Translations under genes and position numbers: made by a program
Notes under the pieces: model-generated
What the model was told of the DNA's origin: nothing
The model's database searches: none
What the model saw: only the letters and a program-made list of their open reading frames with translations
Source of the DNA: a virus
Reading direction: 5' to 3' (one strand)
DNA: 31,293 nt
IMG/VR virus record: IMGVR_UViG_3300042445_001246
Location: 1 to 31,293 of that record
In this document: one piece after another, positions 4,616 to 28,544 of the stretch
Layout: each line of letters begins with the position of its first letter
Numbering within the stretch: position 1 is the first letter of the stretch

Positions 4616-4801
4616 ATGTATCAAGTACAAATGCAATTTATTCCTTTAAATGACAGTATCTGGGTTGCTCGCTTAACACCAGAAGATCCAATCTACCAAT
4701 ACGATAACGAAGCCGAAGCGCAAGCGAAAGCAGAAGAACTGCAGGCAGCGGACGAAACAGGTAGAAAATATCGTGTTCAACAGATCGCAATAGAAGCATA
4801 A
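4616..4801 (+). CDS. Small conserved-looking hypothetical protein
   Basis: A 61-residue protein (MYQVQMQFIPLNDSIWVARL...) that I do not recognise. It begins 29 bases after the fibre gene and ends one base before the next ATG, so it is probably translated with its neighbours. The middle (YDNEAEAQAKAEELQAAD) is rich in Ala, Glu and Gln and probably helical. The start looks like a short beta hairpin. Its place between a fibre gene and a LamG-like protein suggests a fibre accessory role, but nothing in the sequence proves it. It has no signal peptide or membrane segment. Confidence 0.65.
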   Translation: MYQVQMQFIPLNDSIWVARLTPEDPIYQYDNEAEAQAKAEELQAADETGRKYRVQQIAIEA

Positions 4802-4802
4802 T

Positions 4803-5657
4803 ATGGCAATCAAAATTTACGGATATACTAGATTCGGACCGATGTCTATAGATGTACCAACAACGACAACTACGTCGACTACAACTAGTACAACGACAGC
4901 GGCACCTACAACAACAACTACGTCGACTACAACTAGTACGACAACGGCAGCATCTCCAATAATAGCAGAGGGATTAGTACTAAATTTAGATGCTAGTATT
5001 CCATCATCGTACCCAGGTAGCGGTACAACTTGGTATGACATAAGCGGAAATGGATTTAATGCTACTTTAACAAATGGCCCTACATATAGTGGTAGCAATG
5101 GTGGAGTAATAGTATTAGATGGTACAAATGATTGGGTATCAATTCCTGGTAATACAACAATATACAGCAGTAACTTTACATGGCAAACCTGGCATTATTT
5201 TAGAACAGGTGGTGATTATAATCTAGACGGGTTATTCTGGTCTGAAGCTGGAGTAAAGAATTTACTAACAGGATATCGATTTGCAGATACAATAAATCAA
5301 TTCTTCCGAATTGATACACAATCCGGATTATATCAATCTCCTTTAGTAGGAACCCAATACAATAATTTCTATACACCAGGAACAACACCATTAGTAGGTA
5401 GATGGGCTCTTACTACATTAGTAAAAAGTGGTACTAGTTTTACCTTATATTGGGATAATTCAATTAAATTATGGGATGTCACTATTACTGATTGGTCAAT
5501 AAGTAACACATCTCAAGCCATAGCATATGGTGCTAAAAATGATTCATCTTTTGCAAGTACACTGAATGCTGGAAGTATATTCATGTATAATAGAGCACTT
5601 TCAGAAGCAGAAATAACATCAAACTATAACTTAACTAAAACACGCTTCGGCTTATAA
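4803..5657 (+). CDS. LamG/concanavalin-like virion protein with poly-Thr linker
   Basis: A 284-residue protein in three parts. Residues 1-19 are a short N-terminal segment (GYTRFGPMSIDVP). Residues 20-51 are an almost pure Thr/Ser linker, made of two 16-residue units ending in AAP and AAS. Residues 54-284 form a LamG/concanavalin-like lectin domain (GLVLNLDASIPSSYPGSGTTWYDISG; later LDGTNDWVSIPG; ending SIFMYNRALSEAEITSNYN). The ending is typical of the LamG-like family in phage structural proteins. Probable role: carbohydrate binding at the tip or surface of the virion, with the Thr-rich segment as an extended, possibly glycosylated spacer (inference). It sits between two fibre genes and shares its Thr-linker DNA with the gene at 8399, which suggests exchange of domains through this linker. 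Confidence 0.8.
   Translation: MAIKIYGYTRFGPMSIDVPTTTTTSTTTSTTTAAPTTTTTSTTTSTTTAASPIIAEGLVLNLDASIPSSYPGSGTTWYDISGNGFNATLTNGPTYSGSNGGVIVLDGTNDWVSIPGNTTIYSSNFTWQTWHYFRTGGDYNLDGLFWSEAGVKNLLTGYRFADTINQFFRIDTQSGLYQSPLVGTQYNNFYTPGTTPLVGRWALTTLVKSGTSFTLYWDNSIKLWDVTITDWSISNTSQAIAYGAKNDSSFASTLNAGSIFMYNRALSEAEITSNYNLTKTRFGL
4860..4955 (+). repeat. Two 48-bp tandem units coding a Thr/Ser linker
   Basis: Units 4860-4907 and 4908-4955 differ at only a few bases and each encode 16 residues: mostly Thr, with Ser at positions 6 and 10 of the unit and AAP or AAS at the end. The codons vary among ACA, ACG and ACT but the array as a whole is duplicated. Confidence 0.88.
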
Positions 5658-5661
5658 CATT

Positions 5662-5928
5662 ATGGAACTACAAGACTACGAACATAGAGAATTTATGATA
5701 TTTAATGTATCAGAATTAGATCAAATCGATTTCACTAAGGTACACGAAACATCAATCGATACAGTACGCAAATCAGTAGACGGAACTAAAACATTCGTTA
5801 AATGGGATGGCGTTATTCCAAAATGCGTAGCAGACCTTACTACGAAGGAAGGACCATATACATACGAGGAAATATTGGTTATATTAGCGACGGAAGAATG
5901 GACAATACCGTTGCCTCCACTTTCTTAA
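5662..5928 (+). CDS. Small hypothetical protein in fibre region
   Basis: An 88-residue protein (MELQDYEHREFMIFNVSELDQIDF...) starting four bases after the LamG-like gene. I do not recognise the family. It looks soluble and acidic, with mixed alpha/beta character, and has no Cys pair, signal or membrane segment. FVKWDGVIPKCVADLTTKEGPYTYEEILVILATEEW suggests a compact domain. The stop codon overlaps the start of the next promoter-like element, so it closes this transcription unit. It may be a fibre accessory or chaperone by position only. Confidence 0.65.
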   Translation: MELQDYEHREFMIFNVSELDQIDFTKVHETSIDTVRKSVDGTKTFVKWDGVIPKCVADLTTKEGPYTYEEILVILATEEWTIPLPPLS

Positions 5929-5936
5929 TATTTATA
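5927..5936 (+). promoter_or_regulatory. ATATTTAT promoter-like element before third fibre gene
   Basis: The core ATATTTAT at 5928-5935 is the same 8-mer found before nine other genes. It lies 44 bases before the ATG at 5980, one of the two longest spacings. Probable phage promoter (-10-like) element; function is inferred from recurrence. Confidence 0.55.
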
Positions 5937-5944
5937 TGAAACCC

Positions 5945-5970
5945 TCACTCTGTGGACAGTGAAACAGAGT
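5945..5970 (+). promoter_or_regulatory. Leader with two mutually exclusive hairpins
   Basis: ACTCTGT (5947-5953) can pair with ACAGAGT (5964-5970), a 7-bp stem with a 10-base loop. Alternatively TCACT (5945-5949) can pair with AGTGA (5958-5962). The two share bases and cannot form together. The structure ends 9 bases before the ATG of the third fibre, so it could affect translation. It has no T-run and so is not a standard terminator. Confidence 0.4.
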
Positions 5971-5979
5971 ACAATATAA

Positions 5980-8391
5980 ATGCCAAATGAATTCTTAGCT
6001 AGAAACGGGCTTATCGCCCAGAACAACTCTACAATAACAGGATCGCTTAACGTAACCGGTGGTATAACTGGCTCATTACTAGGAACTGCATCATTCGCAG
6101 CAACAGCATCATATCTTACAGGATATATATCTCCCTTCCCCTATACAGGAAGTGCAGTTATATCGGGTAGTTTAACTGTAACCGGATCCCTCAATACATT
6201 AGGTAGTATTACATCTACAGGTACATTAACAGCACAAACGCTGGTAGTACAGACAGTAACATCATCTGTTAGCTTTATAACTGGATCTACACGTTTTGGA
6301 TCGTTAGTTGCTAACACGCACGTGTTTACAGGCAGTATGAGCGTTACAGGTTCTGTAACTGCAACTTCATTTGCAGGTAGCGGAGCTAATTTAACATCTA
6401 TTCCAAATGCCGCTTTATCTAACAGTACAATCTCAGGAATTGCTTTAGGTAGCAATTTAGCTACATTAACTATAAGTACTGGATTAAGTGGAACTTCATA
6501 TAATGGTTCTGGAGCTGTAACTATTGCTAATACAGGTGTAACTTCAAATGTTGCTGGCACTGGTATTTCAGTATCAGGAGCAACAGGTGCTGTTACTATC
6601 ACAAATAGTGGTGTAACTTCAATAGTAGCAGGAACTAATATTTCAATAAGTGGTGCAACAGGCGCAGTAACAATTACAAATGGTATTACAAATAATAACC
6701 AGTTAACGAATGGTGCTGGGTATATTACTAGCTATACAGAAACAGATACATTAGGATCTGTGACAAATAGAGGTAGTAGCACATCACAAAATATTACTTT
6801 TAGTAATGGAAGAAAAGGATTAATAGGTGTTTATGATGCTGCACAAACCCAAGCTATATTTGCTATGGGTATTGATTATATTTTAACAAATGGTGGGGCA
6901 TCAAGTACTATAGGTCCTCTATATGGTTTGGCCTGGTCTTATAATCCAGACTATGGAGGTGCTGGAAATAATCCTCAATCAAAAGCAGGATTAAACCATC
7001 AGCTATTACATATGCAAAATGGTGTTACTACTACAGCAATTGGTTCAGGAATATGGACAAGTGGAGCTATTTCAGCAGGTGGAACTATAACAGCAGTAGG
7101 AGGAGCAAGTGGTGGTTTCTTAAGTGCAACATATGCTTCAGGGTATAATAGAATTTGGGCATTTGGTAACGCAACACCTTATGGATTAGGTTATTATCAA
7201 GGAGGTACAGATTATATTGGTTTTCATTTTGGCAATACTGCGTCACCAGTATTTACTGTTAATTCAAGTGGAAATGGAAGTTTTACAGGTACTATTGGAG
7301 CATCTAACTTCAGTGGTACACATAGTGGCGCTTCATCAGGAACAAACACAGGAGACCAAACGAATATTAGTGGCTATTCAAATAGCACATATAATATAAA
7401 TTATAATGGTGGTCAAGCAGGTGGAATTACATTAAATGTAGGAACAAGTGGAGTGTATAGAACTGAAGGTGGCTCAGGCGGTACCAAAAGTTATGCACCA
7501 TTATTACATCTTGCTGCCTCAGATACTATGTGGCAAATACAAGCTGACTATGCTGGTGGTACTGACATTCAATGGAGAAGTGGCTATGCAGGAACTTGGT
7601 ATACTTGGTGGCATTTCTTACATAGTGGTAACTATACGTCATATTCTCCTTCTCTTACAGGTTCTGGTGCAAGTGGAACTTGGGGAATAAGTGTAACAGG
7701 TACAGCTAGTAACATCACAGCATACAGTATTAACCAAAATCTAGCAACTACTAGTAGTCCTACATTTGATTATGTAAATCTTTCTGTATTAGCAGGAAGT
7801 GCTTATGGTGCTTTAATGTACGCAAATAATGGAACATCATATTGTCAATGGAGATATGCAGGTAGTAAAAATGGATGGGCTGGATTTTCGTGTGGCTATA
7901 GTAATGTTAATGGAGTGATGTATGATTCTAGTGGTAATGGTGGTGTATATAAAGAAAGTGCAGGAAGATGGTATTTTTATTATAGTATAGGTAATGTTTG
8001 TTTCGGAATTAATGACTCTGCAACATCTTCAGCATATGGATTATATGTAACAGGATCAATATACACGACAGGTACTCTTACTCAAGCATCCGATATTCGT
8101 AAAAAAACAAATATAGCAACTATAGATAATGCTCTTGAAAAAATAATACAAATGAGAGGAGTATTCTTTACTAAGATTGGTGAAGAAGAAAAAGGTAGAC
8201 AAACAGGTGTTATTGCTCAAGAAATAAATGAAATATTACCTGAAGTTGTAATTCATGCTGCTGATGTTGATGAATATAGTGTGGCTTATGGGAATGTAGT
8301 TGGTATATTGATTGAAGGTATGAAAGAACTTAACGCAAAATTAGAGGCAGCAAACACACAAATTGAAAATTTAAAACAATTAATAAAATAA
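5980..8391 (+). CDS. Tail fibre protein with canonical S74 chaperone domain
   Basis: An 803-residue fibre starting MPNEFLARNGLIAQNNS. The stem holds TGSLNVTGGITGSL, then the 87-bp module identical to the second fibre gene, then GTLTAQTLVVQTVTSSV. Around residues 180-240 a unit of the form GVTSxVAGTxISxSGATGAVTI occurs twice. The last 100 residues are a standard peptidase S74 domain: SDIRKKTNIATIDNALEKI, then GRQTGVIAQEINEILPEVV, then VAYGNVVGILIEGMKELNAKL and a coiled-coil end. The Ser of SDIRKK and the following Lys match the expected self-cleavage residues. Trp- and Gly-rich segments in the middle (near residues 515-545) may be receptor-binding knobs. It has its own promoter-like element and structured leader, unlike the second fibre, so it may be expressed separately. 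Confidence 0.9.
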   Translation: MPNEFLARNGLIAQNNSTITGSLNVTGGITGSLLGTASFAATASYLTGYISPFPYTGSAVISGSLTVTGSLNTLGSITSTGTLTAQTLVVQTVTSSVSFITGSTRFGSLVANTHVFTGSMSVTGSVTATSFAGSGANLTSIPNAALSNSTISGIALGSNLATLTISTGLSGTSYNGSGAVTIANTGVTSNVAGTGISVSGATGAVTITNSGVTSIVAGTNISISGATGAVTITNGITNNNQLTNGAGYITSYTETDTLGSVTNRGSSTSQNITFSNGRKGLIGVYDAAQTQAIFAMGIDYILTNGGASSTIGPLYGLAWSYNPDYGGAGNNPQSKAGLNHQLLHMQNGVTTTAIGSGIWTSGAISAGGTITAVGGASGGFLSATYASGYNRIWAFGNATPYGLGYYQGGTDYIGFHFGNTASPVFTVNSSGNGSFTGTIGASNFSGTHSGASSGTNTGDQTNISGYSNSTYNINYNGGQAGGITLNVGTSGVYRTEGGSGGTKSYAPLLHLAASDTMWQIQADYAGGTDIQWRSGYAGTWYTWWHFLHSGNYTSYSPSLTGSGASGTWGISVTGTASNITAYSINQNLATTSSPTFDYVNLSVLAGSAYGALMYANNGTSYCQWRYAGSKNGWAGFSCGYSNVNGVMYDSSGNGGVYKESAGRWYFYYSIGNVCFGINDSATSSAYGLYVTGSIYTTGTLTQASDIRKKTNIATIDNALEKIIQMRGVFFTKIGEEEKGRQTGVIAQEINEILPEVVIHAADVDEYSVAYGNVVGILIEGMKELNAKLEAANTQIENLKQLIK
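6112..6198 (+). repeat. 87-bp exact repeat shared by two fibre genes, copy 2
   Basis: Second copy of 1938-2024, about 4.2 kb away in direct orientation. Homologous recombination between them would delete or swap everything from the second fibre stem to the third fibre stem. Confidence 0.92.
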
Positions 8392-8398
8392 ATAACAA

Positions 8399-8773
8399 AT
8401 GGAAATCAATTACAATTGGACAATTAACCCACTAGAAGCATACCCAACAGCTTCAAGTGAAACAGACGTAGTATTCTTAGCACATTGGCAGTTTCATGCT
8501 ACTACTGGTTCATATTCTGCATTATTAATAGGTGCACAATCGTTAATCTACTCTTCAGGATCCGCATTTACATCATTTAATGATTTAACGTTAGAGCAAG
8601 TAACGGGATGGGTTACTGAATCTATGGGTAGTGGTAGTGTAGGTAGAATGAAAGAAAATCTAGCTGCACAGATTGCAAACCAAATCCAACCACCATCAAT
8701 AACATTAACCTCACCATGGTTAAATACAACTACAACTAGTACGACAACTACAACTACTACTTTAGAAGGGTAA
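8399..8773 (+). CDS. Small virion-associated candidate with Thr-rich C-terminal tail
   Basis: A 124-residue protein starting seven bases after the third fibre gene. The first 100 residues (MEINYNWTINPLEAYPTASSETDVVFLAHWQFHATTG...) form a domain seen as a small accessory in phage fibre regions; I cannot give it a function. The segment VTGWVTESMGSGSVGRMKENLAAQIANQIQPP is probably helical. The protein ends in a 14-residue tail of nearly pure Thr with one Ser, then LEG. The DNA of that tail shares a 20-base exact match with the Thr linker of the LamG-like gene. A LamG-like or other display domain may have been lost or swapped after the Thr tract, leaving a bare tail. It is the last gene of the fibre module. 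Confidence 0.7.
   Translation: MEINYNWTINPLEAYPTASSETDVVFLAHWQFHATTGSYSALLIGAQSLIYSSGSAFTSFNDLTLEQVTGWVTESMGSGSVGRMKENLAAQIANQIQPPSITLTSPWLNTTTTSTTTTTTTLEG
8729..8748 (+). repeat. 20-bp match to the poly-Thr linker of the LamG-like gene
   Basis: Identical to 4926-4945 and in the same reading role (Thr-Thr-Ser-Thr). Flanking bases diverge, so the shared piece is limited to the Thr tract. Confidence 0.8.
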
Positions 8774-27854: not shown

Positions 27855-28544
27855 ATGGTAATATATCAAACTATAAATCTTATTACTAATATAAAGTATA
27901 TAGGTAAAGATAAAAATGATAATCCCAATTATATTGGATCTGGTACTAATTTAAAAATAGCTATTAAAAAATATGGTAAATATAACTTTAAAAAAGAAAT
28001 AATAGAATATTGTAACAGTATTGATCATCTTATAGAACGAGAAACATATTGGTTAAATTATTATGACGTAGAAAATAATCCTAACTTCTACAATAAAACA
28101 AACAAACCATTCGGCAACTCAGGACTATCAGAGGAAACAAAACAAAAAATCAAAGAATCAGCTAAAAAACGTATATGGAATCCTGAGTGGGGTAAATTAA
28201 GTGGACAAGCTAGAATAGGATTAAAACGAGATACTAAAAATGGAAATGAACATGGTAATTACGGTAAAGTAAAATCACAAGAACATATAACTAATATGTC
28301 TTTATCTAAGCTAGGTAAAACTCATACTCCTGAATGGTGTTTAAAAATTAAAAATAATAGACAAAAATGTATAGAAGTTAAATCTAGACCTATACAGCAA
28401 TTAGATAGAAACAACAATATTATTCAAGAATTTAAATCTATATCTGAAGCAAAAAAAATAACAGGTATCAGTGGTATTTCAGATGTAGTAAGAGGAGCTA
28501 CAAAAACAGCAGGAAATTTTAAATGGAAATATATTAATAAATAG
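27855..28544 (+). CDS. Free-standing GIY-YIG homing endonuclease
   Basis: A 229-residue protein. The GIY-YIG nuclease core is VIYQTINLITNIKYIGKD, then NYIGSGTNLKIAIKKYGKYNFKKEIIEYC and a catalytic-type Glu in LIERETYWLNYY. NUMOD3-like DNA-binding repeats follow (GLSEETKQKIKESAKKR; SQEHITNMSLSKLGKTHTPEW). A NUMOD1-like helix-turn-helix closes it (PIQQLDRNNNIIQEFKSISEAKKITGI...VRGATKTAGNFKWKYI). This is the SegA-type arrangement of mobile genes in T4-like phages. It cuts a related phage's DNA between the nuclease and helicase genes so that repair copies the gene in. No intron structure flanks it that I can see. Its Lys/Asn-rich, very AT-rich composition differs somewhat from its neighbours. Its insertion may have replaced the start region of the helicase gene. 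Confidence 0.9.
   Translation: MVIYQTINLITNIKYIGKDKNDNPNYIGSGTNLKIAIKKYGKYNFKKEIIEYCNSIDHLIERETYWLNYYDVENNPNFYNKTNKPFGNSGLSEETKQKIKESAKKRIWNPEWGKLSGQARIGLKRDTKNGNEHGNYGKVKSQEHITNMSLSKLGKTHTPEWCLKIKNNRQKCIEVKSRPIQQLDRNNNIIQEFKSISEAKKITGISGISDVVRGATKTAGNFKWKYINK

Follow-up and report, generated by a model that had tools for sequence, protein, structure and literature searches.

The threonine-rich tract of the LamG-like protein encoded at position 4803 is probably a linker at a module seam, and the tract of the protein encoded at 8399 probably the tail of a complete DUF7936 protein. Both genes lie in the window, by which we mean the whole stretch of tailed-phage DNA analysed here (31,293 nucleotides, IMG/VR record IMGVR_UViG_3300042445_001246). 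Phage virion proteins are known mosaics, and the site and manner of module joining are rarely visible. A preliminary description of this DNA had proposed that the Thr tract is a domain-swapping seam shared by the two proteins. The proposal held for the 4803 protein, because an anchor of the same type and a like tract precede another module in contig 3300046028_003364, and it failed for the 8399 protein. The features discussed below are collected in Table 1.

Table 1 Features of the window around the two threonine tracts
Feature	Position	Strand	Basis
61-aa gene, conserved marker directly upstream of the variable display-protein locus	4616..4801	+	relatives at 48 loci
19-residue N-terminal peptide MAIKIYGYTRFGPMSIDVP, probable anchor	4803..4859	+	like anchor at the same place in L005/L199
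Thr/Ser/Ala linker, residues 20-50, module seam	4860..4952	+	duplicated 48-bp unit; L005 homology ends within
LamG-like (ConA-like lectin) C-terminal domain and stop	4953..5657	+	PF13385 matches of relatives; Foldseek
88-aa gene accompanying LamG genes	5662..5928	+	adjoins LamG in L005, L206 and L240
Tail-fibre-like protein of 803 aa, Peptidase_S74 chaperone domain at its C-terminus; its gene directly precedes that of DUF7936	5980..8391	+	PF13884, E 2.4e-15
DUF7936 (PF25590) globular body, residues 1-107, with invariant Pro-Trp end	8399..8719	+	E 7e-22
Low-confidence C-terminal Thr tail LNTTTTSTTTTTTTLEG and stop, with the 20-bp match 8729-8748	8720..8773	+	pLDDT; homologue ends

Results

Architecture of the LamG-like protein

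In the 4803 protein, 19 N-terminal residues lead into a Thr/Ser/Ala tract of 31 residues, behind which lies a C-terminal domain of ~235. The duplicated 48-bp Thr/Ser unit of the preliminary description was confirmed; the unit at 4856-4903 is followed by a second copy at 4904-4951 with 88% identity. Because the protein itself matched no Pfam family at E 0.001, PF13385 (Laminin_G_3) included, the name LamG-like is given on the basis of its relatives and its fold. PF13385 was matched by 35 of the 39 sequences aligned along the domain (alignment A3). A Foldseek search with the predicted model, which contains low-confidence stretches, returned trans-sialidase chains with ConA-like lectin domains as the best matches (E 5.2e-10) and also the cyanopodophage tailspike 9vyh_p (E 3.5e-07). 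Judged from this model, the C-terminal domain has a ConA-like beta-sandwich fold, and it may bind glycans. The anchor and the tract were modelled with pLDDT values of 41-51 per block of ten residues, and the anchor peptide probably docks on the virion particle. The same domain occurs in a structural protein of Flavobacterium phage immuto (Laminin_G_3/ConA-like; 37% identity over residues 53-284), but in L011, the immuto-like LamG protein, only 7 residues form the N-terminus, and there is no Thr tract. No source for the LamG DNA was identified; along most of the domain the best relative is 36-38% identical.

The module behind the tract differs in a syntenic relative

The gene that follows the 61-aa gene is highly variable, as seen at the 47 of 48 loci with a next ORF. 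These 47 loci, which were not de-replicated and whose next ORFs were classed via phmmer or a sequence motif, contained 13 LamG genes without a tract, one LamG gene with a Thr tract (on the contig carrying the window's genes), 21 tail-fibre-like genes, one other Thr-tract gene and 11 others. The other Thr-tract case is contig 3300046028_003364 (L005, L088 and L199), whose protein combines the anchor MAIKITGRTRFGPLSVSAP with several Thr units and another module, of 120 residues. When the window was compared with L005/L199, the 61-aa gene and the anchor aligned at the DNA level, the homology stopped 84-99 bases inside the tract, and the downstream modules were unrelated. The tracts of the window and L199 have a 32-bp exact block in common (P=0.004, 1000 codon simulations). 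Contig 3300046028_003364 also encodes LamG elsewhere, in a gene of its own whose product has another N-terminus; the next gene is homologous to the window's 88-aa gene. Not only does the module behind the tract differ, then, but LamG units also sit on different carriers. The recurrence of the 88-aa gene beside LamG genes (Table 1) looks as if the two were travelling together.

Neither Pfam nor PHROG gave a match to the replacement module of L005. Apart from its own contig, the module turned up only in 3300046006_002393, where the start of the contig cuts the copy before the anchor. An exact DNA pattern for the MAIKI anchor matched only the two contigs already known. A looser pattern, unable to match the window's own spacing, matched L088 and L307 and gave no further carrier, as the frame of the L307 match stops after 5 residues. 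The anchor was seen with another module in only one syntenic relative, and because the anchor of this relative has already diverged, the module swap of the window is not recent. The reading of the tract as a seam is sound for the LamG-like protein, and we infer that recombination, not slow fusion, was the route by which the window's own protein arose.

Among the 102 LamG ORFs in the examined loci, the N-terminus before the domain was short (median 8 residues). A Thr tract directly before LamG was present in only 2 of the 102, the window's protein (as L003) and L054:3554-4894, so the Thr joint is one of several ways of attaching LamG and, as far as these ORFs indicate, is not the usual one. The latter protein has Thr-separated segments and an N-terminus that differs from the window's. 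The search for other carriers joined to LamG, following the idea that such domains can be moved between carriers, yielded one different carrier, L054, with LamG behind a Thr tract.

The DUF7936 protein ends soon after its body, as do its homologues

The 124-aa protein at 8399 is a member of DUF7936 (PF25590; phrog_7802), with 78.5 bits over residues 3-107 against a Pfam gathering cut-off of 27, and its Thr tail lies beyond the family model. Its C-terminus reads TTTTTTTLEG-stop, so that, as described previously, the protein stops right after the tract, three residues later. P106 and W107 are invariant across 39 aligned DUF7936 sequences. In the predicted model the body has a mean pLDDT of 85.6 and the tail 58-61; tails of this kind are presumably disordered.

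A search with the DUF7936 body alone retrieved 56 loci (not de-replicated), 54 with a complete end and two cut. All 54 full-length homologues ended 1-31 residues after the Pro-Trp: 21 had Thr tails, 7 had Pro/Thr tails and 26 had short ends of at most 11 residues. A further domain after the body, which the earlier proposal of a carrier that had lost its domain led one to look for, was present in 0 of the 54. In named phages the DUF7936 CDS measured 96-127 aa in the 13 usable among 14 records examined, out of 22 with matches; in one of the 14 the annotated gene was on the other strand. We also compared codons by counting synonymous differences at residues identical to the window's. Of 15 distant homologues, 11 had a tail that differed at least as much as the body. 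Examples of the values among distant homologues are 0.41 (body) and 0.64 (tail) for L250 and 0.55 (body) and 0.50 (tail) for L292. For the closest different relatives (L274, L276, L279 and L303) the values were 0-0.06 for the tail vs 0.09-0.14 for the body, with 16 codons each. Both the common end and Thr codons that vary as freely as those of the body among distant homologues refute the earlier proposal for this protein, on the terms that the preliminary description itself had set.

No significant match came from a fold search with the predicted DUF7936 structure (best E 0.54), the best match in a profile search of solved structures reached only E 0.055, and a homologue search of the genome_contigs collection returned no relatives. 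In several named phages, as in the window, the gene immediately before that of DUF7936 encodes a tail fibre or an endosialidase chaperone. In the DUF7936 protein at L008:2592-3017 the Thr tail is itself duplicated (VEEPTTSTTTTTTTVEG). Two DUF7936 genes are probably misannotated: L246:1483-1791 of cyanophage S-EIVl, annotated as 'lysozyme', and L321:380-676 of cyanophage WH11-B, where a hypothetical gene overlaps it from the other strand.

The 20 bases common to the two genes

The 20-mer ACTACAACTAGTACGACAAC occurs exactly at both 4926-4945 and 8729-8748, as had been described, and is the longest block common to the tract of the LamG-like protein and the 8399 tail. Its 16-base core is present twice in the window record, and the full 20 bases were placed at the two positions on the longer contig 3300042889_001673, which carries the window's genes at identical coordinates. 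The match exceeds chance under dinucleotide shuffles of the window. A fair null, however, keeps both Thr/Ser peptides fixed and redraws the codons; with 2000 draws per codon-usage set, the probability of a longest match of at least 20 was 0.018 when codons followed the usage of the genome and 0.019 when they followed that of the tracts. In addition, DUF7936 Thr tails of other phages have up to 17 bp in common with the window's LamG tract. The match is real, yet it is only mildly unusual given both peptides and no strong sign of shared DNA. The earlier view of one tract DNA shared by two virion proteins is not supported, as the 20 bp neither connect the two genes nor prove a common DNA history. 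They would mainly reflect the small set of codons that both genes use for their Thr/Ser runs.

Module changes at Thr tracts in other uncultured phages

Among the matches listed in the examined loci there were at least 188 distinct Thr-tract proteins, many of which came from a scan for tract DNA, so that the sample is biased to tracts. In one anchor family, D0 (23 proteins among the matches listed), the tract is followed by 12 different first-module clusters; three stubs ending at the tract and a few short ends were also found, and two of the three stubs have another D0-type gene directly after them. The D0 family had no match in the phages collection. Between the loci L167 and L181, identity is 91% along 488 bases to the left and 93% along 594 bases to the right, and the last 108 bases leading up to the junction all match (108/108); what distinguishes the two is the presence or absence of a whole domain between two Thr tracts. 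L118 and L184 show two differences in the ~119 bases up to the tract and are unrelated beyond it. When breakpoints into non-homologous sequence were counted more strictly, 16 of 20 fell in tracts, 14 of these being from one family; counted by family, 3 of 5 fell in tracts and 2 of 5 elsewhere (hand-worked binomial tail ~0.05, with tracts ±20 bases making up 19.5% of gene length). The breakpoint excess in Thr tracts is suggestive, not conclusive, and from these sequences seams at Thr tracts appear to be more widespread among uncultured phages.

The window's phage has a third Thr-tract protein, at L319:2765-3460 (~44264-44959 of 3300042889_001673). It is 232 aa long, with the anchor MGSLKVGTTLRD..., a long tract and another C-terminal module. 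Compared with a relative that is 97% identical around it, the differences in its tract are an indel of 6 bases and substitutions in clusters, whereas the flanks on both sides agree, a pattern consistent with fast turnover of the Thr tract.

Other observations on neighbouring genes

The N-terminal parts of fibre-like genes in the window resemble one another: 1850-2029 and 6024-6203 are 88% identical over 180 nt, and the repeats at 279-409, 2445-2575 and 6220-6350 share 81% and 66% over 131 nt. Such N-terminal DNA repeats in three neighbouring genes suggest duplication or conversion among fibre genes. The ORFs at 27855-28544 of the window, L004:3686-4264 and L005:7400-8128 look, from a motif, like GIY-YIG homing endonucleases; such ORFs stand at different places in close relatives, and the one that precedes the 91-aa gene in L004, L005 and L009 is absent from the window. 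The tail sheath protein at L007:2603-4603, a core tail protein, has 667 aa vs 566-570 aa in relatives, with ~97 extra residues.

Discussion

We propose that the Thr/Ser/Ala tract of the 4803 protein acts as a flexible linker from a short N-terminal peptide to a displayed ConA-like (LamG) domain and that it grows via duplication of its unit; it is the point at which the window's lineage and its relative differ in the attached module. The tract of the 8399 protein would be a disordered C-terminal extension on a complete DUF7936 domain, of a kind that varies among relatives.

One serious contender, against which we lean slightly, is that Thr tracts are structural linkers or tails only; domain boundaries would always sit at linkers, which would place module differences at tracts, and the tract DNA would have no part in exchange. 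Consistent with this, 100 of the 102 LamG ORFs lack a tract directly before the domain, yet the locus varies, and two of the five breakpoint families lie outside tracts. In the pairs L167/L181 and L118/L184, however, the DNA is 98-100% identical right into the tract before it changes, and at the L167/L181 junction two copies of the tract meet, the outcome expected if repeated tract DNA recombines. The 8399 protein as a display carrier whose domain was lost at the Thr tract is a reading that we find scarcely credible and have rejected. True stubs do exist elsewhere, as three D0 proteins stop at the tract and their relatives continue into modules, and the 20 bp common to the two genes would fit such a history; but none of the full-length DUF7936 homologues has a following domain, 26 of them have a short end and no tract, and the CDS in named phages are near body length. 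Gene conversion or copying of tract DNA between the two genes in this genome would explain the 20 identical bases, with P ~0.02 under codon redraw. We nevertheless consider it very unlikely, because DUF7936 tails of other phages share 17 bp with the window's LamG tract, and the equivalent pair in L199 shares 18 bp while the window and the L199 counterpart of the LamG tract share 32 bp; this possibility was rejected on the codon-redraw, L199 and codon-divergence comparisons.

Domain mosaicism is established for phage receptor-binding proteins (Smug et al. 2023, PMC10684548). As in that study, we see common fragments in otherwise different proteins and shuffling in host-contact proteins, which is recent in their case; a term search of its main text gave no linker, low complexity or threonine, whereas the seam described here is a Thr-rich repeat. 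The tandem BACON repeats of crAss-like phages (PMC6949934) are likewise part of modular near-tail proteins with domain duplication and transfer, but as described there the repeat unit is a folded domain, and that of the window is a Thr linker between different modules. Under the terms tried, we found no paper in the open-access literature that describes Thr tracts of phage proteins as seams.

Beyond the window, we raise only tentatively, and without favouring it, the idea that Thr tract DNA serves many uncultured tailed phages as a common cloning site, with few anchors and a large pool of interchangeable modules. Recombination inside similar, self-duplicating Thr repeats would join anchoring peptides or domains to displayed modules. 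The same repeat at the end of a protein, as in DUF7936, need not be a remnant, and this calls for caution. A low-complexity repeat that marks, and maybe promotes, the joints would be a practical finder of displayed domains in uncultured phages, and a recognisable Thr repeat makes recombination at linkers directly testable. If the idea of a shared site is true, phages would re-arm their surface without disturbing assembly, and the LamG-like protein of the window would be one product.
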